From Crambe crambe (lineage: Eukaryota; Porifera; Demospongiae; Poecilosclerida; Crambeidae), in NCBI GenBank assembly GCA_963924555.1, contig OZ004593.1, forward strand, positions 5,824,480-5,888,479: 64,000 nucleotides of DNA, written 5' to 3'. The notes beneath the pieces are model-generated. The model was given only the letters and a program-made list of their open reading frames with translations, was not told the DNA's origin and did no database searches. The translations under genes were made by a program, and so were the position numbers. Within the stretch, counting starts at the first letter, position 1, and every line of letters begins with the position of its first letter. Positions 1 to 53,799 of the stretch are shown one piece after another.

Positions 1-1363
1 GCGTGTCCCCACACTCACTGAACTAGATGGTGACATGTGGGCAAGTCAACTACTCACTATAAACACAATACAATCCTTGACTATTGTCATCTTTGACTTC
101 ACTGACACACCAGGCTATGTTGGGATACGGAGAGTCGAGGTGGTGATGTTCAACTGTCCACAGCGGGGGATAGCATTTACTACCGTCAACCTCTTAGTAG
201 CCACAGGTAGAGGTCAGCCCTTCAATCATCTTGGTCCCATCTCTGTCAGTTCCCTCACCTCCTGTAAGTATCTCGTGAGAGTGTGTTTGTCAATCACTGA
301 TTCTCGACCAGTAATTGGTCTACAATTCAGCCTTGACCAGGACTCTGACTGGGTGCACCTGGCTGAGGTGACCTTCTATGCCAGAGGTTCCACATGTCCA
401 CCAAATATCATCCTCAATCCACCTACAACACCACCACCAGATACAACACCACCAAATACAATGTCACCAACTACACCCACAACACGATTGGATGCAATAT
501 CATCAGATAATATTTTGGCATCATCAGGAGAATCATCACAGAATACAACGACTTCAATGGAATTTTTTGGAATATCCACTCAAGATAAAATAACCACCAC
601 CATCATAGCAGTAGTGGTCCCTCTCTCCATTGTCCCCATTATTATTATCATTGTAGTTGTCCTGATCCTCTGCATAGTCTGTACCACTAAACACAAGTAC
701 CGACTCGGAACCAAGGAGGACCACACAACCACCCACAGACAAACACACAACCATCAACCTCCACAAGACAGAGGACATATCAACCTGTGTGAAGAGACAG
801 GACAAGCATACTACTCCTCAATACACGACATTCAAGGAGAAGATGTCCCAGCAGATCAAGTCTACAACCGCCTTGAACGAGACACTGGTCCAGAGAGGGG
901 AGGGGCCAAGTCTTCCCGGGGGGCTACTGTGGACCAAAACAAGGCAGAGATGGGAGCATACTCTACCGTGTCCTACATTAAACAACCTCAAGTCTCCAAG
1001 GAAGCTGGTATGAATGATCCACTCTCACAGCTCTATGCTCAAGTTGATGAGGATGTAAAGAAAAAGAAAAGTGAAGACATCTTTGCAACTGACCAACAAG
1101 AAGAGGCTTCTGCTTCTGCATTATATGCTCAAATGGATGAGAAGAGAAAGAAAAAGAAGAAGAAAATAGAGGAAGACACTCCACCCCATGAGCCAGACCA
1201 GCTGTATGCGCAAGTAGACAAGAAGAAGAGGAAGAAGAGAGAGAAGGAGGAGATTGAGGAGGTGTCTCCACAGGAGTCAGGGGATGTGTACTCTGTAGTT
1301 AATAAACCTAGTGCTCCTCCAGTACCTCTCAAGTCAGACCTCCTCATGGAAGAACTCCAGTAA
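1..1363 (+). CDS. C1: kinase-less DDR-like receptor, partial (5' end outside window)
   Basis: This is the last exon of a type I membrane receptor, and its open frame runs from the first bases of the window. Its signal-peptide exons and the first two ectodomain cysteines lie upstream. Visible parts are the VPTLTELDGDMW block, FNCPQ, LTSCKYLVRVC and the W-x-x-LAEVTFY strand. A Thr/Pro-rich stalk and one membrane helix (VVPLSIVPIIIIIVVV) follow. The tail carries YYSSIHDI, VYNRL, YSTVSY, three LYAQ(V/M) modules spaced by Lys/Arg tracts, VYSVVNK and APPVPLK. No kinase domain follows the helix. The tail is almost identical to those of C3 and C8, so these three are recent duplicates. The DS-like (discoidin receptor) assignment is from pattern only. 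A signalling role through SH2 and SH3 partners is inferred. Confidence 0.8.
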   Translation, partial: RVPTLTELDGDMWASQLLTINTIQSLTIVIFDFTDTPGYVGIRRVEVVMFNCPQRGIAFTTVNLLVATGRGQPFNHLGPISVSSLTSCKYLVRVCLSITDSRPVIGLQFSLDQDSDWVHLAEVTFYARGSTCPPNIILNPPTTPPPDTTPPNTMSPTTPTTRLDAISSDNILASSGESSQNTTTSMEFFGISTQDKITTTIIAVVVPLSIVPIIIIIVVVLILCIVCTTKHKYRLGTKEDHTTTHRQTHNHQPPQDRGHINLCEETGQAYYSSIHDIQGEDVPADQVYNRLERDTGPERGGAKSSRGATVDQNKAEMGAYSTVSYIKQPQVSKEAGMNDPLSQLYAQVDEDVKKKKSEDIFATDQQEEASASALYAQMDEKRKKKKKKIEEDTPPHEPDQLYAQVDKKKRKKREKEEIEEVSPQESGDVYSVVNKPSAPPVPLKSDLLMEELQ

Positions 1364-4398: not shown

Positions 4399-6968
4399 AT
4401 GCTAAAGGTAAGACTAATACTGTAGTATGCAGACCTATACTTTTTGATACAGTAGCTATCATACTCTTTATGATGTGAAGGATAATTATCATATTCCTTT
4501 AATAGGAAAATAATAATCTATATGTATAGCTACATAAATGGTGGATTTTTTTATTCATCACCCAACAGAAAAAAAAGTTACACTTGCTAATAATTAGCTC
4601 ATGCAGGCATCACAGAAGGTATACAATTATTGCTGCTTTTTATTTCATGAAACTATTCCATGAAAATTTAAGGTTAATAATTTTATGGCTTTGCATAGCT
4701 ACATCTCTGGCTGAACATGCTGATTTGCTTAGCTACATAATTATGTATATTATTACATTGACTCTGCTTACTGAGAATGACAGTTATCGCTAGTTACATC
4801 ATTATAAAGAATAACTTGCTAGGCCATGCAACATGATCTATGAATTTTAGTATGGTCATCCTCCTTAGCTACAGCTATTCTCATACCATCAGCATTAGAG
4901 ATGAAATCCTGGATGGCACCTCTGAATACAACACTTTGGACACATGAAGGCTGGCAAAGCATGTAAACTGCAAAAACAAGTTATAACAATGATTAGTCTC
5001 ACCTAACAGGTATATTTATCAAAAATAACATTTGTTTTTGCAGTGAACTGCACTTTTTGAGTTAGCAAGTATAAGTATTGTAAGTATTGTATTTGTGAAT
5101 GGTACCCACACCATTGGCAATAGCTACTTGGTCCTTTCTATAACTTTCAGATGGTTTATATACACACATGAAACTAAAAGATGGATTGTTTAGTTAATTT
5201 CTGGTCAGACAATTCTAAGGTACTCAACTTGTGACTATAAATTAAAATTAAAGAGCAAAACTAAACAAATACTTCAAAAATTAATTCTTATTAACCTCTT
5301 CTATTTACCTCTATACCATTGAATTTTACTGTTGTACAGGGGTACGAGTTTGTAATAGCACTCTTTCTGAGTATTTTTCTTCCACTCATCTCGTCTCAAG
5401 GTAAATCTATTATTATCTGAAAGCATTCCACTTTTGATATAGCTGCATTATAGTTGACTATAATATTCCACACAGTCTATCCTGAACACTACACATTTCC
5501 CACTGGTATATCAGAGAATGGATCATCTCCTACTGGAAACTGTTCTAATGTTAGTATGGCTGGCACAATGACAACCTGTCTACAACCAACCTCCAGTGTT
5601 CTGTTTGATGGGCATGTCCCTACACTCACTGGACTAGATGATGACATGTGGGCAAGTCAACTACTCACTACACAATCCTCGACTAAGGTCATCTTTGACT
5701 TCACTGATACACCAGGCTATGACAGAATAGAAAGAATTGAGGTGGTGATGTTCAACTGTCCACAGTGGGGGACAGCATCTACTTTAATCAACATCGCAGG
5801 GGCCACTGCTAGAGATCAACTCTTCAAAGCTTTTGCTTTTACCTCTGTTAGTTCCCTCACCTCCTGTGAGTCTCTTGTGAGAGTGTGTTTGTTAACCAAT
5901 GTTTCTCAACCAGTAATTAGTCTACAATTCATCCTTGACCAGGACTCTGATTGGGTGCACCTTGCTGAGGTGACCCTCTATGACAGAGGTTCCACCTGTC
6001 CACCAAATGTCATCCTCAATCCACCTACAACACCACCAGATGCAACGCTATCAAATACAACATCACCAACTATACCCACGACACGATTGGATCCAATAAC
6101 ATCAGATAATATTTCGGCATCATCGAAAGAACCATCACAGAATATAACAACTTTGATGGGACTTGCTAATCAAGATAAAACAACCACCACCATCATAGCA
6201 GCAGTGTTCCCTCTCTCCATTGTCCTCATTATTGTTATGATTGTAGTTGTCCTGATCCTCTGCATAGTCTGTACCACTAAACGCAAGCACCAACTCAGAG
6301 CCAAGGAGGACCACACAACCACCCACAGACAAGCACACAGCCATCAACCTCCACAAGACGGAGGACACATCAGCCTGTGTGAGGAGACAGGACAAGCATA
6401 TTACTCCTCAATACACAACATTCAAGGAGAAGACATCACAGCAGATCAAGTCTACAACCGCCTTGAACGAGATACAGGTCCAGTAAGGGGACGGGCCAAG
6501 TCTTCATGGGGACTTACTGTGGACCAAAATGAGGCAGAAGTGGGAGCTTACTCTACTGTGTCCTACAGCAAACAACCTCAAGCCTCCAAGGAAGCTGGTG
6601 TGGAGGGTATGGAAGATCCATTCTCACAGCTGTATGCTCAAGTCAATGAGGATGTAAAGAAACCGAAGAAAAGTGAAGACATCTTTGCAACTGACCAACA
6701 AGAAGAGGTTTCTGCTTCTGCATCATATGCTCAAGTGGAGGAGAAGAGAAAGAAAAAGAAGAAGAAGAAGAAAGAAAAAGACACTCCACCCCACGAGCCA
6801 GACCAGCTGTATGCGCAAGTGGACAAGAAGAAGAGGAAGAAGAAAGAGAAAGAGGAGATTAAGGAGGTGTCTCCACAGGAGTCAGGGGATGTGTACTCTG
6901 TAGTTAATAAACCTAGTGCTCCTCCAGTACCTCTCAAGTCAAACTTCCTCATGGAAGAACTCCAGTAA
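4399..6968 (+). CDS. C2: kinase-less DDR-like receptor with tyrosine-motif tail
   Basis: Three exons are 4399-4407 (Met-Leu-Lys), 5340-5400 (61 bases, signal peptide) and 5476-6968, all with GT-AG borders. The spliced frame gives 520 residues. A hydrophobic signal peptide ends in LISSQ near residue 23. The ectodomain has six cysteines at about 46, 58, 118, 154, 161 and 198, and DS-like blocks (DMWASQLL, VIFDFTDTPGYD, IEVVMFNCPQW, DWVHLAEVTLY). A Thr/Pro-rich stalk spans about 199-262 and the membrane helix about 263-289. The tail has YYSSIHNI, VYNRL, YSTVSY, three YAQV modules with Lys-rich spacers, VYSVVNK and APPVPLK. A likely poly(A) signal AATAAA lies at 7004-7009. The start was chosen because only splicing to the Met-Leu-Lys exon supplies a signal peptide in frame. 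Binding of SH2 proteins is inferred; the ligand is unknown. Confidence 0.85.
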
Positions 6969-9241: not shown

Positions 9242-11487
9242 ATGCTAAAGGTAAGACTGAGACTGTAACTATTGCAGGTCATCCCTCAGTCAGTAAAGGC
9301 TATGTACACCTTTTTCAAATAAACTAAATGATATCTTTTGTTTTGCTGTGTGTATGTGCAATCGCTGCATGGACTGCATTTGTCACTATGCTCCGCTAAC
9401 TGTCATAAAATTGACATAAACCCTACATCGCTGCTGCCATAATGATATTATCCTTTTTGGCTACACCTTGCAGCAATATAGGGTTTATGTCAATTTTATG
9501 ACAGTTAGCGGAGCATAGTGACAAATGCAGTCCATGCAGCGATGTAGGGTTTATCAATTCTGTGACAGTTATTAGCAGAGAAAAATGCAATACATAGCCA
9601 GCACCTTGTTTCTGTACTTGGTCTTTGAATCCGTATTCTTATCTCTTTTGTGGGTAATTTACATAGCTATAAAAATACATGACAGATGGTTCAGTTGCTC
9701 TCTGGTCTGATAATTCTGATAGTAAAATACTTGGCTATGATTAGAAAAGCACAATACTTTATTATTATATTGTGCATTGATTAGCTTTAGTTATTATTGT
9801 ATAGGGATACAAATTTGGACCAGCACTCTTTCTGAGTGCCTTTTTCCAACTCATCTTCTCATCTCAAGGTAGCTAGCTAGCTATTCTATTTGACGTATTC
9901 AATATTACAGCTACTGGTAGCTATGACTTATTATCTGAGAGGATTTTCACATTTAAACTTTGATGTGACTATAATCCCACAGTCTATCCTGAACGCTACA
10001 TATTTGTCACTGGTACATCAGTGAATGGATCATCTCCTACTGGAAACTGTTCTGATGTTAGTATGGATGACAAAATGACAACCTGTCTGCAACCAACCTC
10101 CAGTGTTCTGTTTGATGGGCATGTCCCCACACTCACTGAACTAGATGGTGACATGTGGGCAAGTCAACTACTCACTATACCACGATCTATGGATAAATCA
10201 ACTACTTTTGTCATCTTCGACTTCACTGATACACCAGGCTATGACAAAGTAAAGAGAATTGAGGTGGTGATGTTCAACTGTCCACAGCGGGGGATAGCAT
10301 TTACTACCATCCACCTCAAAAGAGCCACAGCTAGAGGTCAGCTCTTCAATGATTTTGGTAAGATCTCTGTCGGTTCCCTCACCTCCTGTAAGTATCTCGT
10401 GAGAGTGTGTTTGTCAGCCACTGTTTCTCAACCAGTAATTGGTCTACAATTTGACCTTGACCAGGACTCTGACTGGGTGCACCTTGCTGAGGTGACCTTT
10501 TATCCCAGACGTTCCACCTGTCCACAAAATGTCATCCTCTATCCACCTACAATACGACCACCAGATACAAAACCATCAAATACAATGTCACCAACTATAC
10601 CCACAAAACGATTGGATGCAATAACATCAGATTATATTTCGGCATCATCAGGAGAACCATCACAGAATACAACGACTTCAATGGAATTTTTTGGGATATC
10701 CACTCAAGATAAAACAACCACCATCATTATAGCAGCAGCGGTCCCTCTCTCCATTGTCCTCATTATTGTTATTATTGTAGTTGTACTGATCCTCTGCATA
10801 GTCTGTACCACTAAACACAAACACCAACTCAGAGCCAAGGAGGACCTCACAACCACCCACAGACAAACACACAACCATCAACCTCCACAAGACAGGGGAC
10901 ATATCAACCTGTGTGAGGAGACAGGACAAGCATACTACTCCTCAATACACGACATTCAAGGAGAAGATGTCCCAGCAGATCAAGTCTATAACCGCCTTGA
11001 ACGAGACACAGGTCCAGAGAGGGGAGGGGCCAAGTCTTCCCGGGGGGCTACTGTGGATCAAAACAAGGCAGAGATGGGAGCATACTCTACCGTGTCCTAC
11101 ATTAAGCAACCTCAAGTCTCCAAGGAAGCTGGTATGAATGATCCACTCTCACAGCTCTATGCTCAAGTTGATGAGGATGTAAAGAAAAAGAAAAGTGAAG
11201 ACATCTTTGCAACTGACCAACAAGAAGAGGCTTCTGCTTCTGCATTATATACTCAAATGGATGAGAAGAGAAAGAAAAAGAAGAAGAAAATAGAGGAAGA
11301 CACTCCACCCCATGAGCCAGACCAGCTGTATGCGCAAGTAGACAAGAAGAAGAGGAAGAAGAGAGAGAAGGAGGAGATTGAGGAGGTATCTCCACAGGAG
11401 TTAGGCGATGTGTACTCTATAGTTAATAAACCTAGTGCTCCTCCAGTACCTCTCAAGTCAGACCTCCTCATGAAAGAACTCCAGTAA
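9242..11487 (+). CDS. C3: kinase-less DDR-like receptor with tyrosine-motif tail
   Basis: Exons are 9242-9250 (Met-Leu-Lys), 9805-9868 (64 bases, one codon longer than in most copies) and 9983-11487, giving 525 residues. The signal peptide ends in LIFSSQ. The ectodomain has the six family cysteines and the DS-like blocks. It differs from C1 and C8 mainly after QLLTI, in the segment between FTTI and SLTSC, and just before GLQF. The tail is nearly identical to C1, with IKQPQVSKEAG, three YAQV-type modules (the second is YTQM), VYSIVNK and APPVPLK. A foldback element sits in intron 1 at the same place as in C8. C3 and C8 are therefore duplicates of one ancestral gene, and the tail may be homogenised by gene conversion. 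Confidence 0.85.
9361..9542. repeat. Foldback (palindromic) element in intron 1 of C3
   Basis: An arm of about 75 bases starting ATCGCTGCATGGACTGCATT is repeated in inverted orientation, ending in AATGCAGTCCATGCAGCGAT, around a short centre near 9436-9470. The arms match closely, so the transcript could form a long hairpin. The same element is found at 34032-34204 in C8. It looks like a non-autonomous foldback transposon; no coding capacity is seen. Confidence 0.75.
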
Positions 11488-14538: not shown

Positions 14539-16824
14539 ATGCTAAAGGTATAGGACTAATAGTGCATGTCACCCCTCAGTCAGTAAAGGTTGTGTAGACT
14601 CCTTTGTTTTGCTGTGTGTGTATGTGCATACATATTTGGGAGAGCTCTACTTCGAAAATGTGACCACCAAAGCATTGTTATTTTAATTCCCACCTATAAG
14701 GAGAATAATCCTTCAACAATAGTTTCATACAACAGATAATTATGCTGGCAGAGCATGTTAGATATCAGTTTGAACAGTATTTTTGATGATGGTGATTGCA
14801 GAGCAAAATTAACATAAGTTAGATAAGTACATAGCTGAATGGTAAAGTCACACGTACTGTTATGGGCCTGTTTTAGAAAAATGGTATGTAGCTAGCTAAT
14901 TAACATGTTTAAGTGTTCTTATCTTTCTTTGTGGGTGACCTAAACACCTGGAATATAATTCTTTTACAGTAGCTATAGTTGTACATAATAGACACATAAG
15001 AATTGTTCAGTGGCTTTCTTGTCTGACAAATTCTGATAGTAAAGTAAAAGCTAATCAACTAGTGACTGTAAATCAGATGTAAATTAAACGTAGAGCAAAG
15101 ATTAACTCTATACTATTTATTATTGTAGGGGTATGAATTTGGAATAGCACTCTTTCTGAGTACCTTTCTTCTACTTATCTCATCTCAAGGTAACTATTAT
15201 TCTTACTACTTTCTATTGGTAGCTATGATGAGATAATTTGGCACATTCGACCTGTATATAAATTTCATTGCACATAATTATTCATAGCTACGTACATAGT
15301 TGACAGTAATATCACTAATGTCATACAGTCTATCCTGAATGCTACACATTTACTACTGGTATGTCAGTGAATGGATCATCTCCCACTGGTATCTGTTGTA
15401 ATGTTAGTACTGATGACACAATGATAACCTGTCTGCAACCAACCTCCAGTGTTCTGTTTGATGGGCATGTCCCCACACTCACTGGACTAGATGGTGACAT
15501 GTGGGCAAGTCAACTACTCACTATAAACACAACACAATCCTTGACTAATGTCATCTTTGACTTCACTGATGCACCAGGCTATGAAAGGATAGAGAGAGTT
15601 GAGGTGGTGATGTTTAACTGTCCACAGTGGGGGATAGCATCTACTACCATCACCCTCACAGCGGCCACTGCTAGAGGTCGGACCTTCAACATTTTTGTTT
15701 TAACCTCTATTATTTCCCTCACCTCCTGCGAGTCTCTTGTAAGAGTGTGTTTATTATCCAAAACACTTATTTCTGGACCAGTAATTCGTCTACAATTCAC
15801 CCTTGACCAGGACTCTGACTGGGTGCACCTTGCTGAGGTGAGCTTCTATGCCAGAGGTTCCACCTGTCCACCAAATATCATCCTCACAACACCACCACCA
15901 CAAAGTCAAACACCACCATCACCTGCATGTACAACACCACCACTAACTACAATACCACCTGCAGAACAATCGAGTGCAGATGAAACTTCAGAAAAATCAT
16001 CACAGGGTACAATACTAACTTCCATAAGGACATCTACTCAAGATAAAAAAACCATCATAGCAGCAGTGGTCCCTCTCTCCATCCTCCTCATTATTATTAT
16101 CATTGTAGTTGTCTTGATACTCTGCATAGTCTGTACCACTAAATGCAAGCACCAACTCAGAGCCAAGGAGGACCATACAACCACCCACAGACAAACACAC
16201 AACCATCAACCTCCACAAGACAGAGGACACATCAACCTGTGTGAGGAGACAGGACAAGCATATTACTCCTCACTACACGACATTCAAGGAGAAGACGTCC
16301 CAGCAGATCAAGTCTACAACCGCCTTGAACGAGATACAGGTCCAGTGAAGGGAGGGGTCAAGTCTTCCCGGGGGGCTGCTGTGGACCAAAACAAGGCAGA
16401 AGTGGGAGCATACTCTACTGTGTCCTACAGCAAACAACCTCAAGCCTCCAAGGAAGCTGGTGTAGAAGGCATGGAAGATCCACTCTCACAGCTGTATGCT
16501 CAAGTTGATGAGGACGTAAAGAAGCCGAAAAAGAAAAGTGAAGTAGTCTTTGCTACTGACCAACAAAAAGAGGTTTCTGCTTCTGCATTATATGCTCAAG
16601 TGGATGAGAAGAGAAAGAAGAAGAAGAAAGAAGAAGACACTCCACCCCACGAGCCAGACCAGCTGTATGCACAAGTGGACAAGAAGAAGAGGAAGAAGAG
16701 AGAGAAGGAGGAGATTGAGGAGGTATTTCCACAGGAGTCAGGGGACATGTACTCTGTAGTTAATAAATCTAGTGCTCCTCCAGTACCTCTCAAGTCAGAC
16801 CTCCTCATGGAAGAACTCCAGTAA
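14539..16824 (+). CDS. C4: kinase-less DDR-like receptor with tyrosine-motif tail
   Basis: Exons are 14539-14547, 15129-15189 (61 bases) and 15329-16824, giving 521 residues. The signal peptide ends in LLLISSQ. The ectodomain has the family blocks (DMWASQLLTI, FDFTDAPGYE, VEVVMFNCPQWGI, LTSCESLVRVC, DWVHLAEVSFY). Its first segment has an extra cysteine pair-like CC in GICCNVS. The stalk is Pro/Thr-rich (TTPPPQSQTPPS). A strongly hydrophobic helix (ILLIIIIIVVVLIL) follows. The tail has YYSSLHDI, VYNRL, YSTVSY, three YAQV modules, MYSVVNK and APPVPLK. The donor after Met-Leu-Lys reads GTATAG instead of the GTAAGA seen in most copies, a small deviation that may affect splicing. Confidence 0.83.
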
Positions 16825-19022: not shown

Positions 19023-19136
19023 ATGTTAAAGGTAAGACTGAACTGTAACTACGTAGCATGTGCAGTTGCCCTCAGTCAGTAAAGGCTGTTTAGACTCTTT
19101 TTAAGAATTGTTTTGCTGTGTGTGTGTGCATGCATG

Positions 19137-19178
<42 letters not shown>

Positions 19179-21650
19179 CACATGCATGCATGCATAATTA
19201 CAGTGGAACCTCCGAATAATGGACACTCTGAATAAAGAACACCTCTCTGTAAAGGACACTTGTTGCTGTCCCACCATAGTACTTTGTGTATTAAATGACC
19301 TCTGAATAAAAGTCACCTTTCTATAAAGGACAATTTCAGTGGCCCCAGATTGTCCATTATTCAGAGGTCCCACTGTACTTCAGTTTCGCAATTAATGTAT
19401 TGATTCCATGTAGACCACACTATACTTGGCCTACACTCTCCAATATTTATGCTGAACTGCATTTTTGATGATGGTGATAGCAGTTCTAGATCAGAGCAGA
19501 GCAAAATACGTAGCTAGCTACATAATGGCAGCTAGCTGGTATGTTTAAAAAATTGGCAATACTTGGCATGCTTTTATCTCTCTTTGTGAGTAACATGACC
19601 TAAACACCTGGAATATAATTTTCAGATGCTTCAGTTGCTTTTTTGTCACTAGTTGAGTAAATTTACAGTGGAACCTCCAAATAATGGACACACTTGGAAC
19701 CCAGCCTTTATCCTTGTGAAGAAGCTGTCCTCTTTTGGAGATTATTTTTATATACAAGGGCACAATCCTTTGTAGAGAGATTTGTTTCTTTTGGAGTGTC
19801 TTTTATTGGAGATTCCATTCTACTATCAGAATTGTCTGACTGTAAATTAGTAAAGCAAAGCGAATACTTTAAATAATGTTTTGATTCACTATCAGTCAAA
19901 TAATAATAATCTCACAACATAACTATAATATAGTAATCGATTAACTACTTATTATTGTAGAGGTACAAGTTTGGAATAGCGCTCTTTCTGAGTACCTTTC
20001 TTCCACTTATCTCATCTCAAGGTATAACCCTATGGCTTTCATCTTTAATTTTTTTGATGTAGCTGTAGCTACATACTGAGGTTACTGTTATATCCTTAAT
20101 GTCATGCAGTCTATCCTGAACACTACACATTTATTAATGGCACATCAGTGCATGGATCATCTCCTACTGGAAACTGTTCTAATGTTAGTATGGCTGGCAC
20201 AATGACAACCTGTCTGCAACCAACCTCCAGTGTTCTTTTTGATGGACATGTCCCCACACTCACTGGACTAGATGGTGACATGTGGGCAAGTCAACTACTC
20301 ACTATAAACATATCACGATCTTTGACTCATCCTTTCATCTTAACTACTACTGTCATCTTTGACTTCACTGATACCCATGGCTATGACAGAATAGAGAGTG
20401 TTGAGGTGGTGATGTTCAACTGTTCACAGAGTGCGATAGCATCTACCATCAACCTCAACGGTGCCACTGCTAGAAGTGAACCCTTCACTGTTTTTACAAG
20501 TACTTCTGTTAGTTTCCTCACTTCCAGTGAGTCTCTTGTGAGAGTGTGTTTATCATCCTTCATTAATCGATCACTAATTGGTCTACAATTCCAAAACTCT
20601 GACTGTGTGTACCTTGCTGAGGTAACCTTCTATGCCAGAGGTTATAACTGTCTACCAAGTGTCATCCCCACTCCATCAACAACAGCACCAGTTAAAACGA
20701 CTACTTTAGCTATGACAGGAGTGAATCCAGTTATCATGACAACTATATCTATGACAACATCAGAAGGATCATCCAAAATGACAACTTCCACGGGTTCCAC
20801 TGAAATATCAATCATCATAGGAGTAGTGGCTCCTCTTTCCATTGTCCTCATTATTGTTATTATCATAGTTGTCCTGATCCTCTGCATAGTCTGTATCACT
20901 AAACACAAACACCAACTCAGAGCCAAAAGGGACCACATGACCACCCACAGACAAACACACAACCATCAACCTCCACAAGACAGAGGACACATCAACCTGT
21001 GTGAGGAGACAGGACAAGCATACTACTCCTCACTACACGACATTCAAAGAGAAGACGTCCCAGCAGATCAAGTCTACAACTGCCTTGAACGAGATACAGG
21101 TCCAGTGAGGGGAGGGGCCAAGTCTCCCTGGGGGGCTACTGTGGACCAAAACGAGGCAGAGGTGGGAGCATACTCTACTGTGTCCTACAGCAATCAACCT
21201 CAAACCTCCAAGGAAGCTGGTGTGGAGGGTATGGAAGATCCACTCTCACAGCTGTATGCTCAAGTCGATGAGGACGTAAAGAAACCAAAAAAGAAAAGTG
21301 AAGATGTCTTTGCTACTGACCAACAAGAAGAGGTTTCTGCTTCTGCATTATATGCTCAAGTGGATGAGAAGAAGAAGAAGAAGAAGAAGAAAGAGGAAGA
21401 CACTTCACCCCACGAGCCAGACCAGCTGTATGCACAAGTGGATAAAAAGAAGAGTAAGAAGAAAAAGGAAGACACTCCACCCCACGAGCCAGACCAGCTG
21501 TATGCACAAGTGGACAAGAAGAAAAGGAAGAAGGAGGAGATTGAGGAGGTGCCTCTACAGGAGTCAGGGGATGTGTACTCTGTAGTTAATAAACCTAGTG
21601 TTCCTCCAGTACCTCTCAAGTCAGATCTCCTCATGAAAGAACTCCAGTAA
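19023..21650 (+). CDS. C5: kinase-less DDR-like receptor, four YAQV modules
   Basis: Exons are 19023-19031 (ATGTTAAAG), 19961-20021 (61 bases) and 20110-21650, giving 536 residues. The signal peptide begins MLKRYKFG and ends in LISSQ. The ectodomain is the most unusual of the main group. It has an insertion after SLTH before VIFDF, FNCSQ replaces FNCPQ, and SSESLVRVC replaces SCESLVRVC, so one of the six cysteines is lost. The strand motif reads DCVYLAEVTFY, where a Cys replaces the usual Trp and might compensate. The stalk is short of prolines. The tail has four LYAQV modules, because the EDTPPHEPDQLYAQVDKKK unit is duplicated. VYSVVNK and PPVPLK follow. Two MITE-like repeats lie in intron 1. 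Confidence 0.83.
19117..19193. repeat. (TG)n / (CATG)n microsatellite
   Basis: A run of about 17 TG dinucleotides is flanked by GCATGCATGCATG on the left and a CGCGCGCACATGCATGCATGC tract on the right. It lies in intron 1 of C5, directly before a MITE. It is a simple repeat with no coding meaning. Confidence 0.9.
19201..19375. mobile_element. MITE with pogo/Tigger-like termini (intron 1 of C5)
   Basis: Imperfect terminal inverted repeats begin CAGTGGAACCTCCGAATAAT and end ATTATTCAGAGGTCCCACTG. TA lies on both sides (19199-19200 and 19376-19377), as expected for a TA target duplication. The CAGTGGAACCTC end is typical of pogo/Tigger-type MITEs. Internal sequence is short and noncoding. Confidence 0.75.
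19666..19820. mobile_element. Second, diverged MITE of the same family
   Basis: The left end CAGTGGAACCTCCAAATAAT matches the element at 19201. The right end (TATTGGAGATTCCATTC) is a degenerate inverted copy, followed by TA at 19821. TA also precedes the element at 19664-19665. It is likely an older insertion in the same intron. Confidence 0.55.
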
Positions 21651-33940: not shown

Positions 33941-36125
33941 ATGTTAAAGGTAAGGCAGGTCATCCCTCAGTCAGTAAAGGCTATGTACACCTTTTTCAAA
34001 TAAGCTAAATGTTTTGCTGTGTGTATGTGCAATCACTGCATGGACTGCATTTGCCACTATGCTCTGCTAACTATCATAAAATTGATATAAACCCTATATC
34101 GCTGCATGATATTATCCTTTTTGGCTACATGCAGCAATATAGGGTTTATGTCAATTTTATGACAGTTAGCAGAGCATAGTGACAAATGCAGTCCATGCAG
34201 CGATGTATAGGGTTTATCAATTCTGTGACAGTTAGCAGAGCAAATGCAGTACATAGCCAGCACCTTGTTTCCGTACTTGGTTGACTCTGTATTCTTTTCT
34301 CTTTTGGGGTAATTTACGTAGCTACATGACAGATGGTTCAGTTACTTTCTGGTCTGATAATTCTGATAGTAAAATACTCAGCTATGATTAGAAAACCACA
34401 ATACTTTACTATTATATCATCATTCTTAGTGCACTGATTAGCTTTATTATTATTGTATAGGGAGACAAATTTGGACCAGCACTCTTTCTGAGTGCCTTTT
34501 TCCCACTCTTCTCATCTCAAGGTAGCTAGCTAGCTATTCTATTTGACGTATTCAATATTACAGCTACTGGTAGCTATGACTTATTATCTGAGAGGATTTT
34601 CACATTTAACCTTTGATGTGACTATAATCCCACAGTCTATCCTGAACGCTACACATTTGTCACTGGTACATCAGTGAATGGATCATCTCCTACTGGAAAC
34701 TGTTCTGATGTTAGTATGGCTGACACAATGACAACCTGTCTGCAACCAACCTCCAGTGTTCTGTTTGATGGGTGTGTCCCCACACTCACTGGACTAGATG
34801 GTGACATGTGGGCAGGTCAATTACTCACAATGCAAACAACACAATCTGTCTTCTTTGACTTCACTGACACACCAGGCTATGACAGAGTAGAGAGAATTGA
34901 GGTGGTGATGTTCAACTGTCCACAGTGGGGGATAGCATTTACTACCATCTACCTCTTAGGAGCCACAGCTAGAGGTGAGCCCTACGAGCATCTTGGTTTG
35001 ATCTCTGTCAGTTCCCTCACCTCCTGTAAATATCTCGTGAGAGTGTGTTTGTTGACCATTGTTTCTCGACCATTAATTGGTCTACAATTTTACCTTGACC
35101 CGGACTACTCTGACTGGGTGCACCTTGCTGAGGTGACCTTCTATGCCAGAGGTTCCACCTGTCCACCAAATGTCACCCTCAATCCACCTACAACACCACC
35201 ACCAGATACAAAACCATCAAATACAATGTCACCAACTATACCCACAACACTATTGGACACAATAACATCAGATAATATTTCGGCATCATCAGGAGAATCA
35301 TCACAGAATACGACTTCAATGGAATTTTTTGAAATATTCACTCAAGATAAAATAACCACCACCATCATAGCAGTAGTGGTCCCTCTCTCCATTGTCCCCA
35401 TTATTATTATCATTGTAGTTATCCTGATCCTCTGCATAGTCTGTACCACTAAACACAAGTACCGACTCAGAACCAAGGAGGACCACACAACCACCCACAG
35501 ACAAACACACAACCATCAACCTCCACAAGACAGAGGACATATCAACCTGTGTGAGGAGACAGGACAAGCATACTACTCCTCAATACACGACATTCAAGGA
35601 GAAGATGTCCCAGCAGATCAAGTCTACAACCGCCTTGAACGAGACACTGGTCCAGAGAGGGGAGGGGCCAAGTCTTCCCGGGGGGCTACTGTGGACCAAA
35701 ACAAGGCAGAGATGGGAGCATACTCTACCGTGTCCTACATTAAACAACCTCAAGTCTCCAAGGAAGCTGGTATGAATGATCCATTCTCACAGCTCTATGC
35801 TCAAGTTGATGAGGATGTAAAGAAAAAGAAAAGTGAAGACATCTTTGCAACTGACCAACAAGAAGAGGCTTTTGCTTCTGCATTATATGCTCAAATGGAT
35901 GAGAAGAGAAAGAAAAAGAAGAAGAAAATAGAGGAAGACACTCCACCCCATGAGCCAGACCAGCTGTATGCACAAGTAGACAAGAAGAAGAGGAAGAAGA
36001 GAGAGAAGGAGGAGATTGAGGAGGTATCTCCACAGGAGTTAGGCGATGTGTACTCTGTAGTTAATAAACCTAGTGCTCCTCCAGTACCTCTCAAGTCAGA
36101 CCTCCTCATGGAAGAACTCCAGTAA
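33941..36125 (+). CDS. C8: kinase-less DDR-like receptor with tyrosine-motif tail
   Basis: Exons are 33941-33949 (ATGTTAAAG), 34461-34521 (61 bases) and 34636-36125, giving 519 residues. The signal peptide begins MLKGDKFGPALF and ends in LFSSQ, very like C3. All six cysteines are present. Ectodomain differences from C1 and C3 again cluster after QLLT, in the segment before SVSSLTSC, and before GLQFYLD. The stalk has TTPPPDTKPSNTMSPT. The helix is VVPLSIVPIIIIIVVILIL. The tail is almost identical to C1, with three YAQV-type modules (the second is YAQM), VYSVVNK and APPVPLK. The intron 1 foldback element is shared with C3. Confidence 0.85.
34032..34204. repeat. Foldback element in intron 1 of C8
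   Basis: This is the second copy of the palindromic element at 9361-9542, with arms ATCACTGCATGGACTGCATT and AATGCAGTCCATGCAGCGAT and a slightly shorter centre. Shared position in intron 1 shows that it was inserted before the C3/C8 duplication. Confidence 0.75.
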
Positions 36126-39107: not shown

Positions 39108-41256
39108 ATGTTAAAGGTAAGACTAATACTGTAACTAGTGCATGTCACCCCTCAGTAAGTGTAGACTCCTTTGTTTTGCTGTGTGTGCATGTGCATACAT
39201 AATTATTTGGGAGAGCTCTACTTCGAAAATGTGACCACCAAAACTTATAAATAATGTCCTCCAACAATACAACAAATAATTATGTTGGCAAAGCATGTTC
39301 AGTTTGGACTGTATTTTTGATGATGGTGATTGCAGTCCTGAGGGAGCAAAATTATGTATTTGTGAATGGTAAAGTCACGTACACCATGTATGTTTGTTAT
39401 GGGCCTGTTTGGGAAAATGGTAGCTAACATGTTTAAAAAATACTTGGTCTCTGACAGTGTTCTTGTCACCTGGAATATAATTTTCTGTTCTGTTACAATA
39501 AACACATAATAAGCATTCAGTAGTGACATTTCTGATAGTAAAGCTAATCAGCTAGAGCAAAGCATAATAGGTACTTCATACTGTAGTAATTCTTAGTGCA
39601 CTGATGATTAACTCTATACCACTTACTGTTGTATAGGGGTACGAGTTTGGAATAGCACTCTTTCTAAGTACCTTTCTTCCAGTCATCTCATCTCAAGGTA
39701 GCTAACTATTTCTAGTAGTACATAGTTGAAAATTTTTATTGTGTAACTTAATCCATGAAGCTAGTGCTGTACATAGCTGAGTTTATAACCACATCCCTAA
39801 TTCCATAGTATATCCTGAACGTTACACATTTCTCACTGGTACATCAGTGAATGGATCATCTCCTACTGGAAACTGTTCTAGACTGCAGAATGATAGCACA
39901 ATGACAACCTGTTTACAACCACCAAACTCTGGTGTTCTGTTTGATGGGCATATCCCCACACTCACTGGACTAGATGGTGACATGTGGGCAAATCAATTAC
40001 TCACTATAAACACTATGCAACCCCAGACTACTGTCATCTTTGACTTCACTGATACACCAGGCTCTGACAGAGTAAAGAGAATTGAGGTGGTGATGTTCAA
40101 CTGTCCACAGCAGGGGATAGCATTTACTACCATCAAACTCTTAGGAGCCGATAGAGGTCAGCCCTTCACAGATCTTGGTTCCATCTCTGTCAGTTCCCTC
40201 ACCTCCTGTAAGTATCTCGTGAGAGTGTGTTTGTCAGCCTTCATTTCTCAACCACTAATTGGTCTACAATTCACCCTTGACCAGGACTCTGACTGGGTGC
40301 ACCTTGCTGACGTGATCTTCAATGCCAGAAATTCCACCTGTCAACCAAATGTCATCCTAACATCATCACCACCAAATACAACACCACCTACTATAACACC
40401 ACCAGATGCAAATATTACTACTATACTACCAACAACAACAACGAATATTTCATCAGATCCAACTACAACTACATCACAGGGGACATCTAATCCAACCACC
40501 ACCATCATAGCAGTAGTGGTCCCTCTCTCCATTGTCCTCATTATTGTTATCATTATAGTTGTCCTGATCTTCTGTATAGTCTGTACCACTGAACACAAGC
40601 ACCTACTCAGAGCCAAGGCGGACCATACAACCATCCACAGACAAACACACAACCATCAACCTTTAGGACACATCAACCTGTGTGAGGAGACAGGACAAGC
40701 ATACTACTCCTCACTACATGACATTCAAAGAGAAGACGTCCCAGCAGATCAAGTCTACAACCGCCTTGAACGAAATACAGGTCCAGTGAGGGGAGGGGCC
40801 AAGTCTCCTCGGGGGGCTACTGTGGACCAAAACGAAGCAGAAGTGGGAGCATACTCTACTGTGTCCTACAGCAAACAACCTCAAGCCTCAAAGGAAGCTG
40901 GTGTGGAGGGTATGGAAGATCCACTCTCACAGCTGTATGCTAAAGTCGATGAGGACATAAAGAAAAAGAAAACTGAAGACGTCTTTGCTACTGACCAACA
41001 AGAAGAGGCTGCATTATATGCTCAAGTGGATGAGAAGAGAAAGAAGAACAAGAAGAAGAAAGAAGAAGACACTCCACCCCACAAGCCAGATCAGCTGTAT
41101 GCACAAGTGGACAAGAAGAAGAGGAAGAAGAAAGAGAAAGAGGAGATTGAGGAAGTGTCTCCACAGGAGTCAGGGGACATGTACTCTGTAGTTAATAAAC
41201 CTAGTACTCCTCCAGTACCTCTCAAGTCAGACCTCCTCATGGAAGAACTCCAGTAA
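39108..41256 (+). CDS. C9: kinase-less DDR-like receptor with tyrosine-motif tail
   Basis: Exons are 39108-39116 (ATGTTAAAG), 39637-39697 (61 bases) and 39809-41256, giving 505 residues, the shortest complete array member. The signal peptide ends in VISSQ. The N-terminal segment (RLQNDSTMTTCLQPPNSG) pairs it with C6. Six cysteines are present. The loop before SVSSLTSC is shortened (LLGADRGQPF). The stalk is Thr/Pro-rich. The tail has lost a few residues at NHQPLGHINL relative to the usual NHQPPQDRGHINL. It has YYSSLHDI, VYNRL, YSTVSY, LYAKV, two LYAQV modules, MYSVVNK and TPPVPLK. Confidence 0.84.
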
Positions 41257-43678: not shown

Positions 43679-44153
43679 ACATTCCATGCATTAACTATAC
43701 AGTTTTTATATGGTCAACAGAATCCAATAAAAGTTGTGCCAGCCAGACAGATTAGTGAAGTATCAGTTAACTGAAGTCTGTAGTATGTCACTACTCTGAC
43801 TGGGTGTACCTTGCTGAGGTGACCTTCTATGTCAGAGGTTCCTCCTGTCTACCAAACGGCATCCTAACACCATCACCTACAACACCACCTACTACAACAC
43901 CACCACCAGATACAACACCACCAGATGCTACTATGCTACCAACATCAGCTATAAAGGAAACTGGAAGCAATCACAGATTCATAACTACGACATAGCTATA
44001 AACATTCCATGCATTAACTATACAGTTTTTATATTGTCAACAGAATCTAATAAAAGTCATGCCTGTTGTGAAGTATCAGTTAACTGAAGTCTGCATGTAA
44101 GTAGCAGTTAAACTCTATATGGCTAGTGTGAAACTACATACACTATGCTAAAG
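43679..44153 (+). pseudogene. Array gene fragment fused to duplicated upstream blocks
   Basis: A truncated copy of the conserved upstream block (43679-43790) runs directly into a ~159-base piece of receptor exon 3 (43793-43951). This piece encodes SDWVYLAEVTFYVRG, the final cysteine and a TTPPPDTTPPD stalk. It then breaks into another upstream block that ends in a Met-Leu-Lys exon (44145-44153) with a good donor (GTAAGAC). The body of the gene, signal exon and tail are absent. This looks like the scar of a deleted array copy, joined by unequal recombination. The Met-Leu-Lys exon at 44145 could still serve as an alternative first exon for C10. Confidence 0.7.
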
Positions 44154-44675: not shown

Positions 44676-47108
44676 ATGTTAAAGGTAAGACTGATATGCA
44701 GGTCACTCCTCAGTAAGTAAAGGCTATGTAGACGCTTACTTTTTTTTGTACACTATAAACATGAAAGTGTGTACTGCACACATTAAAAACAGTGTGTGTA
44801 TTGGGACAAAATGGTGTGCAGTAAACACTTTTATTTTTGCATGCATACTTTTGGGGAAGCCACCAAAAGTATAGTAATTTCAATTACCATTAACATCCTC
44901 TAACAATAGTTTCATACAACAGATAATTATGCTGGCACAATAATATTTAGACATCAGTTTATTTTTGATGATGGTGATTGCAGTTCTGAAAAGAGTTAGC
45001 ACCATAATTGTACAGTATTTGTGACACCATGTATGTTATGGTCCTGTTTGGGAAAATGGTAGCTAACATGTTTAATAATACTTGGTCTTTGACCATGCTC
45101 TTATCTTTCTTTATGGGTGACCTAAACACCTGGAATATAATTTTCATACTATAATATAGACACGTAAAGAAGTGTTCAGTTGCTTTCTGGTCTGACAATT
45201 TGGTTTAGCAGGAGCAAAGCAAATACATTTATGCCATAGTAATTCTTAGTGCACTGATTAACTCTATACTATTTATTGTTGCATAGGGGTACAAGTTTGG
45301 AATAGCACTCTTTCTGAGTACCTTTCGTCCACTTATCTCATCTCAAGGTAGACATTCTTACTACTTTCTATAGCTATGATGAGAAGATTTTTTGCACAAC
45401 CGACTTGTATAACTGACAATAATATCACTAATTTCATACAGTCTATCCTGAGCACTACACATTTCCCACTGGTATGTCAGTGAATGGATCATCTCCTACT
45501 GGAAATTGTTGTAATGGTACAATGAAAACCTGTTCCCGACCTAGATCCAGTGTTCTGTTTGATGGGCATGTCCCCAAACTCACTGGACTAGATGGTGACA
45601 TGTGGGCAAGTCAACTACTCACTATAAACACAACACAATCGTTGGCTAATGTCACCTTTAACTTCACTGATACACCAGGCTATGACAGAATCGAAAGAGT
45701 TGAGGTGGTGATGTTCAACTGTCCACAGTGGGGGATAGCATCTACTACCATCAATCTCGATGGGGCCACTGCTAGAGGTCAACCCTTCAATATTTTTGCT
45801 TCAACCCCTGTTAGTTCCCTCACCTCCTGTGAGTCTCTTATAAGAGTGTGTTTGTCAGCCAACGTTTCTCTACCACTAATTCGTCTACAATTTGCCCTTG
45901 ACCAGGACTCTGACTGGGTGCACCTAGCAGAGGTGACCTTCTATGCCAGAAATTCCACCTGTCCATCAAATATCATCCTCAATCAAACTACAACATCACC
46001 AGATACAACACCACCTGCAGTACAATCAAGTACAGATACAACTCTAACTTCCGTAGGGACATTCACTCAAGATAAAACAACCACCACCATCATAGCAGTA
46101 GTGATCCCTCTCTTTATTGTCCTCATTATTGTTATCATTGTAGTTGTCCTGATCCTCTGCATAGTCTGTACCACTAAACACAAGCACCAACTCAGAGCCA
46201 AGAAGGACCACATGACCATCCACAGACAAACACACAACCATCAACCTCCACGAGACAGAGGACACAACAACCTGTGTGAGGAGACAGGACAAGCAAACTA
46301 CTCCTCACTACATGATATTCAAGGAGGAGATATTCCAGCAGATCAAGTCTACAATTGCCTTGAACGAGACACAGGTCCAGTGAGGGGGAGAACCAAGTCT
46401 TCCTGGGGGGCTACTGTGGACCGAAACGAGGCAGAAATGGGAGCATACTCTACTGTGTCCTACAGCAAACAACCTCAAGCCTCCAAGGAAGCTGCTCAAG
46501 TTGATGAGGATGTAAAGAAACCAATAAAGAAAAGTGAAGATATCTTTGCTACTCACCAACAAGAAGAGGCTTCTGCTTCTGCATTATATACTCAAGTGGG
46601 TGAGAGGAGAAAGAAGAAGGAAAAGAAGAAGAAAAAGAAGAAGAAAGAAGAAGATACTCTGCCTTATGAGCCAGACCAGCTGTATGCGCAAGTGGACAAG
46701 AAGAAGAGGAAGAAGAAAAAGGAAGACAGTTCACCCCCTGAGCTAGACCAGCTGTATGCTCAGGTGGACAAGAAGAAAAGGAAGGAAGACAGTCCACCCT
46801 TTGAGCTAGACCAACTGTATGCTCAAATGGACAAGAAGAAGAGTAAAAAGAAAAAGGAAGACAGTCCACCCCCTGAGTTAGACCAGCTGTATGCTCAAGT
46901 GGACAAGAAGAAGAGTAAAAAGAAAAAGGAAGACAGTCCACCCCCTGAGTTAGATCAGCTCTATACTCAGGTGGACAAGAAGAAGAGGAAGAAGAGAGAG
47001 ATTGAGGTGTCTCCACAGGAGTCAGGGGATGTGTACTCTGTTGTTAATAAACCTAGTGCTCCTCCAGTACCTCTCAAGTCAGACCTCCTCATGAAGGAAC
47101 TCCAGTAA
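44676..47108 (+). CDS. C10: kinase-less DDR-like receptor with expanded YAQV tail
   Basis: Exons are 44676-44684 (ATGTTAAAG; a second candidate is 44145-44153), 45287-45347 (61 bases) and 45442-47108, giving 578 residues, the longest member. The signal peptide reads MLKYG-type hydrophobic sequence with an unusual Arg (TFRPLISSQ). The ectodomain has all family blocks, and the N-terminal segment has NCCNGTMKTCSRP. The stalk is short. The tail has lost 13 residues in frame, including the tyrosine of the first YAQV module (KEAAQVDEDV). It has gained others: six further YAQV/YTQV/YAQM modules are seen, four of them in a near-perfect repeat of DSPPPELDQLYAQVDKKK type. VYSVVNK and APPVPLK end it. 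The Lys codons form long AAG/GAA tracts. Confidence 0.83.
44748..44852. repeat. Small inverted-repeat element in intron 1 of C10
   Basis: AAAGTGTGTACTGCACACAT and TGGTGTGCAGTAAACACTTTT form inverted arms around AACAGTGTGTGTATTGGGAC. A related sequence lies at 51541-51658. It is probably a short MITE with decayed ends. Confidence 0.5.
46655..46995 (+). repeat. In-frame tandem LYAQV/Lys-tract repeats in the C10 tail
   Basis: About five units of 60-75 bases each encode an acidic-proline linker, DQLYAQVD and a Lys/Arg run. Two neighbouring units (about 46801-46940) are almost identical at the DNA level. Unit number differs between array genes (three in most, four in C5, C6 and C11, six in C10), consistent with slippage or unequal exchange. 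Confidence 0.85.
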
Positions 47109-51375: not shown

Positions 51376-53799
51376 ATGGTGAGTTCTATTCAGCAGAATC
51401 AAATTCAATAAAATTATATAGCTATAGTCCTTGTTCAATCAGATTTAAGGGCAGTGGTTACTATAGCAGGTCATCTCTCAGCTTAAAAATAAACTGCTAT
51501 CCAGTGGTGTTCATTATAATCATGGTACAAGAACACTATACACTGTAAAAACAAGTGTTTACTGCACACCATTTTGTCCATATACACACACTGTTTTTGT
51601 TTTTGGTGTGTGTATTGGGACAATTTAGTGTGCAGTACACACTTTCATTTTTACAGTGCTAGAGTAGCTGAAGTAATAATTATCCATTAGGCCACTATTT
51701 ATAGAATCCTAGTTTCCTGTCCAAGAAAATATCCATAAGTGCTGCGGGCGGGCGGTTATTATAATTATTCTATTACTGCTTCGTTGTTTGTCTCAAGGGT
51801 CCTGTCTTCATCATTCACTAGTCTCGCGGCCCACGAGACTAGTCATTCACCACGGGCTTTCCCAAAAAGAGCTGCATGTGAAGCCAAATGTGCGCGCTCT
51901 ACTGCGCGCATGAGCAATGGCAGGCGCTATAGGCAGTAATAATTTTTGATGCGGTGACATTTTCAATACGCGGGCGGTGGACAGGAAACAATCATTCTAT
52001 TAATAGTGGCCTTATATATACTCTTCATAGATGTGAGGATTAATATGTTGATTCTTCTAGGTGCACAAGTTTGAAACACTTCTTTTGGGTATCTTCCTTC
52101 CTCTTGTCTCATCTCAAGGTATACTATCAAACTCTACTGGTATAGAGTGACTATCATGTATAGGGTCTGTTATGTGACTCTAGTATGATTATAAGATTAT
52201 TAACTGGCTCTGCATCATACAGAACATGATGTATGTACAATATTTCTCTTTTGTCCGATGCATGCATTTGCAGTAATCAATCCAGAATACTATTCATTTT
52301 ACTATGGCAAGTCAGTGAATGGATCAGTAAATGGATCATCTCCTACTGGAAACTGTTCCAATAGCCGCTTATCTGATGAAGTAATAACCTGTCTGCAACC
52401 AAACTCCAGCTTTCTGTTTGATGGGCATGTCCCCACACTCACTGGACTAGATGGTGACATGTGGGCAAGTCAACTACTCACAATACGATCAATAAATAGC
52501 CGTATTGATATCTCATCTTCTTTTATTGAAGAAACAGCACTTATACCTGATTCAGATAATGTAACAATTGAAAGGGTTGAAGTGGTGATGTTTAACTGTC
52601 CAGAGTCAAGTCAAAGTATCTCTCTTGAGATCTCGGTAGGAAATCAAGAGAATTTGACTTTTATAACAGAGAAAGATTTGGGATCTGTCACTTCTTGCGA
52701 CTCGTTTGTGAGAGTATGCATATCAGTCAATACTAATTCTCTTCAAGTTCTTAGGATGAGATTCCTTTCTGGGGGGCAAGACTATTTGCTTTACCTTGCT
52801 GAAGTGACTTTCTACAGTCATAATTCTACCTGCAGTTCACCAGACCGTAATTATACCAGCGGTTCACCAGAAATCATTTTTACTTCACCTACACAACCAC
52901 CAGATACCATGTCACCAGTTGTAAAAATTGCGGATACAGGCACCATCACTATAGCAGATAAAATAACTGCTGGTGTAGCTGCAGTCTTTATCATCATCAT
53001 TATTGCTATCCTCATAGCATTCCTGATCCTCTGCATAGTCTTTACCACTAAACAAAAGCACCAACTCAGACCCAAGGAGGACCACACAATCACCCACAGA
53101 CAAACACACAACCATCAACCTCCACAAAGCAGAGGACACATCAACCTGTGGTGTGAAGAGACAGGACAAGCATACTACTCCTCACTACATGACATTCAAG
53201 GAGAAGATGTCCCAGTAGATCAAGTCTACAACCACCTTGAACGAGACACTGGTCTAGTGAGGGGAGGGGCTAAGTCTTCCCGGGGGGCTACTGTAAATCG
53301 AAACAAGGCAGAGGTGGGAGCATATTCTACTGTGTCCTACAGCAAACAACCTCAAGCCTCGAAGGAAGCTGCTGTTGCTCAAGTCGTCTTTGCTACTGAC
53401 CTACAAGAAGAGGCTTCTGCTTCTGCATTATATGCTCAAGTGGATGAGAAGAGAAAGAAGAACAAGAAGAAGAGAGAGGAAGACACTCAACCCCATGAGC
53501 CAGACCACTTGTATGCACAAGTGGACAAGAAGAAGAGTAAGGAAGACAGTCCACCCTCTGAGCTAGACCAGCTATATGCTCAGGTGGACAAAAAGAGTAA
53601 GAAGAAGGAAGACAGTCCACCCCCTGAGTTAGATCAGCTGTATGCTCAGGTGGACAAGAAGAAGATGAAGAAGAGAGAGAAAGAAGAGATTGAGGAGGTA
53701 CCTCCAGGGGACGTGTACTCTGTAGTTAATAAACCTAGTGCTCCTCCAGTACCTCTCAAGTCACACCTCCTCATAAAAGAACACCAGCTTAACCACTAA
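51376..53799 (+). CDS. C11: diverged array-type receptor with hybrid 5' end
   Basis: Proposed exons are 51376-51378 (ATG alone, donor GTGAGT), 52061-52118 (58 bases, signal peptide VHKFETLLLGIFLPLVSSQ) and 52274-53799, giving 528 residues in one frame. The single-codon first exon matches the two genes downstream, not C2-C10, where Met-Leu-Lys is used. The ectodomain keeps LFDGHVPTLTGLDGDMWASQLLTI but is strongly diverged after it (SSSFIEETALIPDSDN, ISLEISVGNQENLTF). FNCPES, VTSCDSFVRVC and LYLAEVTFY are kept. The helix differs (AAVFIIIIIAILIAFLILC). The tail has YYSSLHDI, VYNHL, YSTVSY, four LYAQV modules, VYSVVNK and APPVPLK, then a slightly longer end (EHQLNH). The first YAQV module is deleted. 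Start choice is less certain than the rest. Confidence 0.75.
51541..51658. mobile_element. Short MITE with CACTGTAAAAA termini (intron 1 of C11)
   Basis: The ends CACTGTAAAAACAAGTGTTT and ACACTTTCATTTTTACAGTG are inverted repeats. Inner inverted segments (TACTGCACACCATTTTGTCC and GGACAATTTAGTGTGCAGTA) extend the arms almost to the centre. A relative is at 44748-44852. The target duplication is unclear. Confidence 0.65.
51690..52011. mobile_element. Harbinger-type MITE with TTA target duplication (intron 1 of C11)
   Basis: Terminal inverted repeats GGCCACTATTTATAGAAT and ATTCTATTAATAGTGGCC are followed inward by TTTCCTGTCC and GGACAGGAAA. TTA flanks both sides (51687-51689 and 52012-52014), the target size typical of PIF/Harbinger elements. 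The GC-rich interior is noncoding and includes a smaller palindrome (ACTAGTCTCGCGGCCCACGA then GACTAGT). The right end lies only ~50 bases before the signal exon of C11. Confidence 0.8.

Follow-up and report, generated by a model that had tools for sequence, protein, structure and literature searches.

A tandem array of kinase-less receptors in the sponge Crambe crambe: a slice of a larger repertoire with one ectodomain pool on three kinds of tail

It is, to our knowledge, unsettled how sponges and other early animals recognise non-self, and a stretch of 64,000 nucleotides from the sponge Crambe crambe (GenBank assembly GCA_963924555.1, contig OZ004593.1, positions 5,824,480 to 5,888,479 of the forward strand; “the window” from here on) raises the question of what a tandem array of eleven membrane receptors lacking a kinase domain might do in such an animal. 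The array was a slice of a larger repertoire of at least 141 ectodomain places and not a separate eleven-gene unit: one ectodomain was shared by receptors with three kinds of tail, ectodomains had been re-assorted among these tails, the ectodomain was variable and the tail conserved, and the kinase was absent from the array. With slightly better than even confidence, we explain the array as one branch of a germline repertoire of receptors that are related to the DDR-type (discoidin domain receptor) kinases, in which a single ectodomain pool is set on three tail kinds and which is proposed to work as a recognition and modulation system. Recognition, be it an immune or an allorecognition role, is what we infer as the best reading of the locus and not a result. 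The locus is a concrete and testable candidate for the recognition repertoire of a sponge, and in it kinase and kinase-less receptors of an animal share one evolving ectodomain pool; if this explanation is true, it would be an early kind of paired receptor tied to receptor tyrosine kinases.

The eleven head-to-tail paralogues described in an earlier, sequence-only reading of the window were all recovered (11/11) from the list of open reading frames (ORFs) and by tblastn, all on the plus strand and spaced 4.5-6.8 kb apart. Their common plan is a cysteine-rich ectodomain, a Thr/Pro stalk, a membrane helix and a tail with tyrosine motifs. The exon running from ectodomain to tail was complete in 10 of the 11 copies (482-555 amino acids, aa); copy 1 was cut at window base 1, and its full ectodomain begins upstream of the window, at C16:5824343 (C16 being the 7.06 Mb contig to which the window belongs). 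The copies, with window positions and strand, were as follows:

2..1363 (+): array copy 1, cut at the window start; ectodomain, stalk, transmembrane helix (TM) and YAQV tail
5475..6968 (+): array copy 2, ectodomain-to-tail exon, 497 aa; signal exon frame 5295-5400
9982..11487 (+): array copy 3, 501 aa; signal exon about 9805-9869
15328..16824 (+): array copy 4, 498 aa; signal exon 15129-15189
20109..21650 (+): array copy 5, 513 aa; signal exon 19961-20021
25182..26777 (+): array copy 6, 531 aa; signal exon 25046-25106
30018..31598 (+): array copy 7, 526 aa, with a duplicated stalk segment; signal exon 29856-29916
34635..36125 (+): array copy 8, 496 aa; signal exon 34461-34521
39808..41256 (+): array copy 9, 482 aa; signal exon 39637-39697
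45441..47108 (+): array copy 10, 555 aa, with six YAQV-like units; signal exon 45287-45347
52276..53799 (+): array copy 11, 507 aa, the most diverged; signal exon 52061-52118

The array had been taken for a unit of eleven genes, which held within the window but not beyond it: 18 places with a YAQV tail follow one another at C16:5787198-5877315, the window array being the right-hand part of this series, and related ectodomains were spread over the genome (143 Mb in 119 contigs searched). The ectodomain search gave 151 matches, 149 rows of which were merged into 141 places, so that the repertoire numbers at least 141, fragments included; some places were fragments or contained stops. By contig, the places were distributed among C16 (96), C21 (30), C13 (6), C12 (5), C20 (2), C1 (1) and C18 (1). 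When each place was assigned the nearest downstream tail on the same strand, tails being typed from the main search rows only, 33 places had a YAQV tail, 58 a short tail and 14 a kinase, and no tail was found for 36.

The three kinds of tail differed in exon structure. “Class A” (YAQV tail) was encoded in the same exon as the ectodomain; “class B” (short tail) in a separate exon with a TM, motifs of the YEQV and YMEV type and a C-terminal tyrosine motif; and “class C” in a separate exon with a TM, a tyrosine-rich juxtamembrane and a tyrosine kinase. One class C receptor was located within the window, at 56.8-59.3 kb, and its kinase carried the GxGxFG, VAVK, HRD and DFG motifs. Among the rows listed in the kinase search, 28 had E < 1e-60; of these, 25 lay on C16 between 5.42 and 6.05 Mb, and two of the 25 were pieces of one kinase. 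Further arrangements were seen elsewhere: a kinase-less relative at C16 2.985 Mb (L051:106-2379) had 16 Yxx[VIL] motifs, including 12 YAQV-type units, by tandem amplification of a short unit; a copy on C12 (L053) had the ectodomain and a short three-motif tail in a single exon; and in 11 of the 30 places on C21 another ectodomain came next, before any tail (C21 0.88-0.95 Mb), as in L035, which reads as two ectodomains followed by a short tail. A same-type kinase copy at C16 ~5.735 Mb (L049:2-754) had HHD instead of HRD in the catalytic loop and, to judge from these residues, is possibly a pseudokinase.

No remnant of a kinase was found within the array by tblastn with the kinase of the neighbouring receptor as query, and the 11 copies were therefore kinase-less, as had been claimed. 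The membrane helix and tail motifs of the earlier description were likewise present in every copy: a hydrophobic 21-mer (mean Kyte-Doolittle hydropathy 3.2-3.9), the PPVPLK motif, and 9-13 tail tyrosines with 6-9 Yxx[VIL] motifs per copy. Shuffled tails had a mean of 1.2-2.0 such motifs, and the observed number was reached by at most 3 of 2000 shuffles in any copy. Tyrosine was invariant (11/11 rows) at seven columns of the tail alignment, with V, I or L at +3 in all 11 copies at five of the seven, and units of the YAQV type (pattern [LH]Y[AT][QKHL][VM]) numbered 2 to 6 per window copy.

Two other parts of that description stood only in part. Exactly six core cysteines were present in the ectodomain of five of the 10 complete copies, but four had extra cysteines (those at 15328, 30018, 34635 and 45441) and the copy at 20109 had serine at the fourth core position and one cysteine elsewhere; four cysteines were visible in the cut copy 1. 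Upstream of the ectodomain exon (74-157 nt) a signal-type exon (e.g. GYKFGIALFLSTFRPLISSQ) followed by a CAAG/GT donor was located by conservation between copies in 10 of the 10 copies examined; 34-52 of its 52 bases agree with the exon of the copy at 45441 (in the copy at 9982 the ungapped match was shifted by 4 bases relative to the donor). No start-codon exon was found: when ATG exons with a phase-1 donor and a hydrophobic core were searched for, none of the candidates was conserved, so the signal peptide is supported yet incomplete.

Ectodomain and tail evolved under different regimes. The ratio of nonsynonymous to synonymous rates (omega), estimated from the 45 pairs of ten array copies with the most diverged copy left out, was 0.87 for the ectodomain (codon bootstrap 0.67-1.14) vs. 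0.38 for the TM plus tail (0.28-0.52), and was higher in the ectodomain in 44 of the 45 pairs; synonymous divergence (dS) was similar (0.19 in the ectodomain and 0.17 in the tail). The stalk, which is hard to align, had an omega of 1.10. The ectodomains evolve near neutrality and the tails under constraint.

The relation between ectodomains and tails was followed on an ectodomain tree of 48 sequences from the window and the other loci (duplicates and fragments excluded), 42 of which had a tail label. The labels changed 12 times vs. a minimum of 2, and strongly supported branches alone forced at least 6 changes for the short tail, at least 5 for YAQV and at least 3 for the kinase. Tail types interleave on the tree, and ectodomains have therefore been re-assorted among tails; exon re-assortment and gene conversion each fit this pattern. 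Compared with the YAQV tail, the juxtamembrane blocks of two of three kinases scored above shuffles that kept the tyrosine blocks (3 and 12 of 1000 as high).

The kinship of the repertoire was seen in the sister kinases. When the two kinases tested were each ranked against all solved structures, DDR1 and DDR2 filled the first 11 rows, with top scores of 264 and 269 bits; non-DDR rows began at 233 bits for one kinase (labelled EGFR, with TrkB following at 227) and at 233 bits (TrkB) for the other, leads of 31 and 36 bits, the assignment being a ranking by best match and not a phylogeny. For the ectodomain, sequence searches were silent: no Pfam family matched that of the array over the curated cut-off, and against PDB sequences neither the single sequence nor the profile matched beyond chance (6 and 2 rows, none with E below 0.49). 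The discoidin family PF00754 was not listed at E up to 1 in the five ectodomain-bearing pieces among nine proteins scanned, and genome-wide it gave two partial hits, one over cut-off and neither on C16 or C21, in a search that could miss split exons. Nothing matched the DS-like family PF21114, in a search whose control was silent too, and no Ig family was listed in the Pfam scan of proteins.

AlphaFold models were made from window sequences alone (predicted TM-score 0.65 and 0.67). The best match of the kinase-bearing ectodomain model was the DDR1 ectodomain (rank 1, E 9e-5, TM-score 0.52 by query), the isolated DS-like domain of DDR1 coming at rank 16, and later rows for the array model included galactose-binding-like sandwiches: CBM22, CBM61, IFT25, human PP25 and Eph ligand-binding domains (TM-score by target 0.4-0.6). 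The predicted structure thus agreed, at moderate confidence, with the galactose-binding-like fold that had been expected; the ectodomain is modelled as a sandwich of this kind, with a link to DDR1 by fold for the kinase-bearing version only. The relation of the family to DDR-type receptor tyrosine kinases, and with it the description “kinase-less DDR-like”, is largely supported, the ectodomain family of the array being found on receptor kinases too, one of them in the window.

The likeness to DDR1 and DDR2 lies in the kinases of two sister receptors of the array (DDR-type by best match), in the long tyrosine-rich juxtamembrane and, as far as the models predict, in a galactose-binding-like ectodomain fold with DDR1 as top match for the kinase-bearing form. 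Unlike DDR1 and DDR2, the receptors had no Pfam discoidin domain that could be found and, in the genes that were read, a single domain with a predicted DS-like fold (L035 on C21 has two ahead of its tail), the array members were without a kinase, and the family occupied more than 140 places vs. two DDR genes in vertebrates. Sponges are stated to have DDR orthologues, and the discoidin domain to be the collagen binder of the DDRs (PMC6485061); in the accessible part of another comparison, DDR was found in human and fly only among the species covered (PMC5395295).

Several results weigh against the explanation favoured here. Both ectodomain models (array and kinase-bearing) were of moderate confidence, with a mean predicted local distance difference test score (pLDDT) of 64; the first rows for the array model were bacterial toxin-pore chains (TM-score by query ~0.4); and neither DDR1 nor its DS-like domain was among its best 50 rows. 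Residues 97-132 of the ectodomain had an omega of 1.22, but the interval (0.75-2.11) includes 1 and diversifying selection is therefore not proven. On the tree, tail labels clustered more than chance would give (a value as low in 3 of 200 shuffles), nothing on clustering could be read from the kinase label (three rows), and the bootstrap was not fully settled. The juxtamembrane of the window kinase was no closer to the YAQV tail than many shuffles (326 of 1000 as high), and derivation of this tail from a kinase receptor, as a truncated juxtamembrane, is only weakly suggested by the sequence comparison. The YAQV motifs had been likened to vertebrate inhibitory motifs, and Yxx[VIL] sites were abundant, but the strict immunoreceptor tyrosine-based inhibitory motif (ITIM; [SIVLT]xYxx[VIL]) occurred in 0 of the 11 array tails. 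The ITIM in its [SIVL] form was present in two of four short or D-type tails and one of two juxtamembranes checked, and in the class B tail of the window.

The genome also contained potential readers of such tails. An SHP2-type gene (L062, C18:6538801-6541400) had the order SH2-SH2-PTP; both SH2 pieces matched PTPN11 best, and the PTP piece carried HCSAGIGRTG and was top-scoring among the PTP hits listed. On C5, a region of ~104 kb (1417826-1522148; L063, L064) gave 29 SH2 hits, and in the two stretches read, on the minus strand, several SH2 ORFs in succession were followed by an ORF with Kelch repeats (Pfam on three L063 ORFs: two SH2, one Kelch). Phosphotyrosine readers, as predicted from their domains, exist and are expanded in this genome and are putative partners of the array tails; the SH2-Kelch array is possibly a co-expanded reader set. 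Large clusters of tyrosine phosphatase domains were seen on C9 (2.6-3.4 Mb), C12 (0.1-0.4 and 2.5-3.2 Mb) and C13 (3.6-3.9 Mb) in a search with 183 matches, not all among those listed (150 of 601 candidates scored). The small-RNA proteins of the genome look like those of animals: a Piwi-family ORF on C15 proved to be an Argonaute, and the best matches of a Piwi exon from C9 were three entries labelled Piwi or Piwi-A (107 bits, vs. 95 for Piwi-like 2), with a freshwater sponge entry (7kx7) among the best hits; the size of the genome and its wealth of receptor tyrosine kinases also fit a demosponge.

In the mechanism proposed, the ectodomain would bind a variable surface ligand, a cell-surface or microbial protein or glycan, and on clustering the tail tyrosines would be phosphorylated in trans by sister kinases or by Src-type kinases. 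Phosphorylated YxxV sites might then recruit proteins with SH2 domains, be it the SHP2-type phosphatase, the expanded set of SH2-Kelch proteins or both; adaptors with SH3 domains may be recruited too, the tail carrying a class II SH3 motif (PPVPLK). The kinase-less members would in this way raise, damp or redirect the kinase signal, and the whole would work like paired activating and modulating receptors, resembling plant receptor kinases with their kinase-less receptor-like proteins.

The vertebrate paired and inhibitory receptors of the KIR, SIRP and LILR type are, like the array, single-pass receptors in tandem with a variable ectodomain and a conserved tail, and have sisters with different signalling ends; YxxV sites and an SHP2-type phosphatase in the genome add to the likeness. 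They differ in that the ectodomain here is not an Ig fold, its models matching galactose-binding-like folds, in that the activating partner here would be a built-in kinase and not an adaptor with an immunoreceptor tyrosine-based activation motif (ITAM), and in the ITIM result given above. Plant receptor kinases and receptor-like proteins, too, lie in tandem arrays and draw on shared ectodomain families, some members having a kinase and others lacking one, but their domains are unrelated; in the sponge, signalling would be by animal tyrosine phosphorylation, and the kinase-less tail is a multi-site docking tail and not a stub. That the locus is an animal counterpart of the plant system, with a germline repertoire that an early-branching animal derived from a DDR-type kinase, its variable ectodomains re-assorted time and again among an active kinase, a short tail and a multi-site docking tail, read by a co-expanded SH2-Kelch array and serving self/non-self or microbe recognition, is offered as a tentative and somewhat doubtful extension.

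Parallels in tail design are found among invertebrate allorecognition receptors. The FcoRs of Botryllus have Yxx[ILV] core motifs, ITIM and hemITAM, and such motifs have been reported for Hydractinia alr (PMC12065747); like the array members, these are single-pass receptors at one locus with long tails. FcoR ectodomains, however, are of the Ig and sushi type, no kinase-bearing siblings are mentioned in the accessible text of that paper, and alr and FcoR are allorecognition receptors, whereas the array is known from the sequence of one genome.

The large receptor family with this tail-swapping layout is real and was unnamed in the sources searched. The earlier statement that no named family combines these features held at Pfam cut-offs and in the literature searched, in which no paper on the family was named (most subscription journals lay outside the search), but a Porifera-specific superfamily of tyrosine-kinase receptors has been suggested for Amphimedon (cited in PMC8242945), and the kinase-bearing members described here may belong to it. 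Compared by description only, that superfamily differs in that the accessible text of PMC8242945 names no such ectodomain, kinase-less siblings or tail swapping. Halichondria was reported to have diverse NLR, SRCR, CTLD and GPCR genes and almost 200 “cytokine receptors”, in which the tyrosine kinase was one of the dominant domains (PMC8242945). In Amphimedon after grafting, genes for adhesion mediated by the aggregation factor were not significantly enriched, and the accessible text does not mention tyrosine kinase (PMC5450542).

Other explanations of the locus have to account for the same evidence. Receptors that kept the job of the DDRs, sensing collagen or a spongin-like matrix, with the kinase-less copies as adhesion scaffolds and an expansion tracking a diverse matrix and not non-self, would fit the DDR-type kinases and the rank of DDR1 as top fold match for the modelled kinase-bearing ectodomain; we give this a small though real chance, since PF00754 was not found in the five ectodomain-bearing pieces scanned, the genome had only two partial hits, one over cut-off, and the ectodomains evolve near neutrality and occupy more than 140 places. 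It is rather improbable that the kinase-less copies are only decoys with passive tails, which take up ligand or act as dominant negatives by pairing with sister kinases. The absent kinase and shared ectodomain would suit this, and DDR1 itself has kinase-less splice forms, but a passive tail should decay, whereas here constraint was strongest in the tail (omega 0.38), which has invariant tyrosines and the SH3 motif in 11/11 copies and, in L051, repeats amplified to 16 motifs.

Constraint on the tails bears also on the idea that the tandem expansion is decaying under relaxed constraint and that few of its copies are expressed. In favour of decay are the broken gene beside the array at 55 kb, the relic at 43.8 kb and certain ectodomain matches that were fragmentary or had stops. 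This explanation is nevertheless very unlikely, since the tails are under purifying selection and each of the 10 complete copies has an open frame (482-555 aa) and a signal-type exon upstream. An assembly artefact in which a single gene is repeated has a practically negligible chance. A non-coding stretch of 2 kb was 95% identical between two array units, but ectodomain identity among the first ten copies was 66-81% (differences of 19-34%), so that the array is not one gene repeated through assembly error; it lies within a 7.06 Mb contig and related copies were found on six other contigs.

The remaining related features of the window, including the receptor kinase beside the array, were:

43795..43866 (+): ectodomain relic fragment between copies 9 and 10 (tblastn, 24 aa, E 1e-7)
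55029..56217 (+): neighbour gene, likely a broken copy; kinase-type ectodomain in two frames (change near 55205), then a class B short-tail exon at ~55831-56217
56761..57417 (+): ectodomain exon of the receptor tyrosine kinase beside the array, ~30% identical to the array ectodomains
57445..59349 (+): stalk, TM, tyrosine-rich juxtamembrane and tyrosine kinase (GxGxFG, VAVK, HRDLATRN, DFG; PF07714, E 2e-80), DDR-type by best match

Beside the receptor kinase, the window also contained a DDE_1 transposase-like ORF (61164-62192, plus strand) and an ORF with HIRAN and Ulp1-type protease domains (62237-63280, minus strand).

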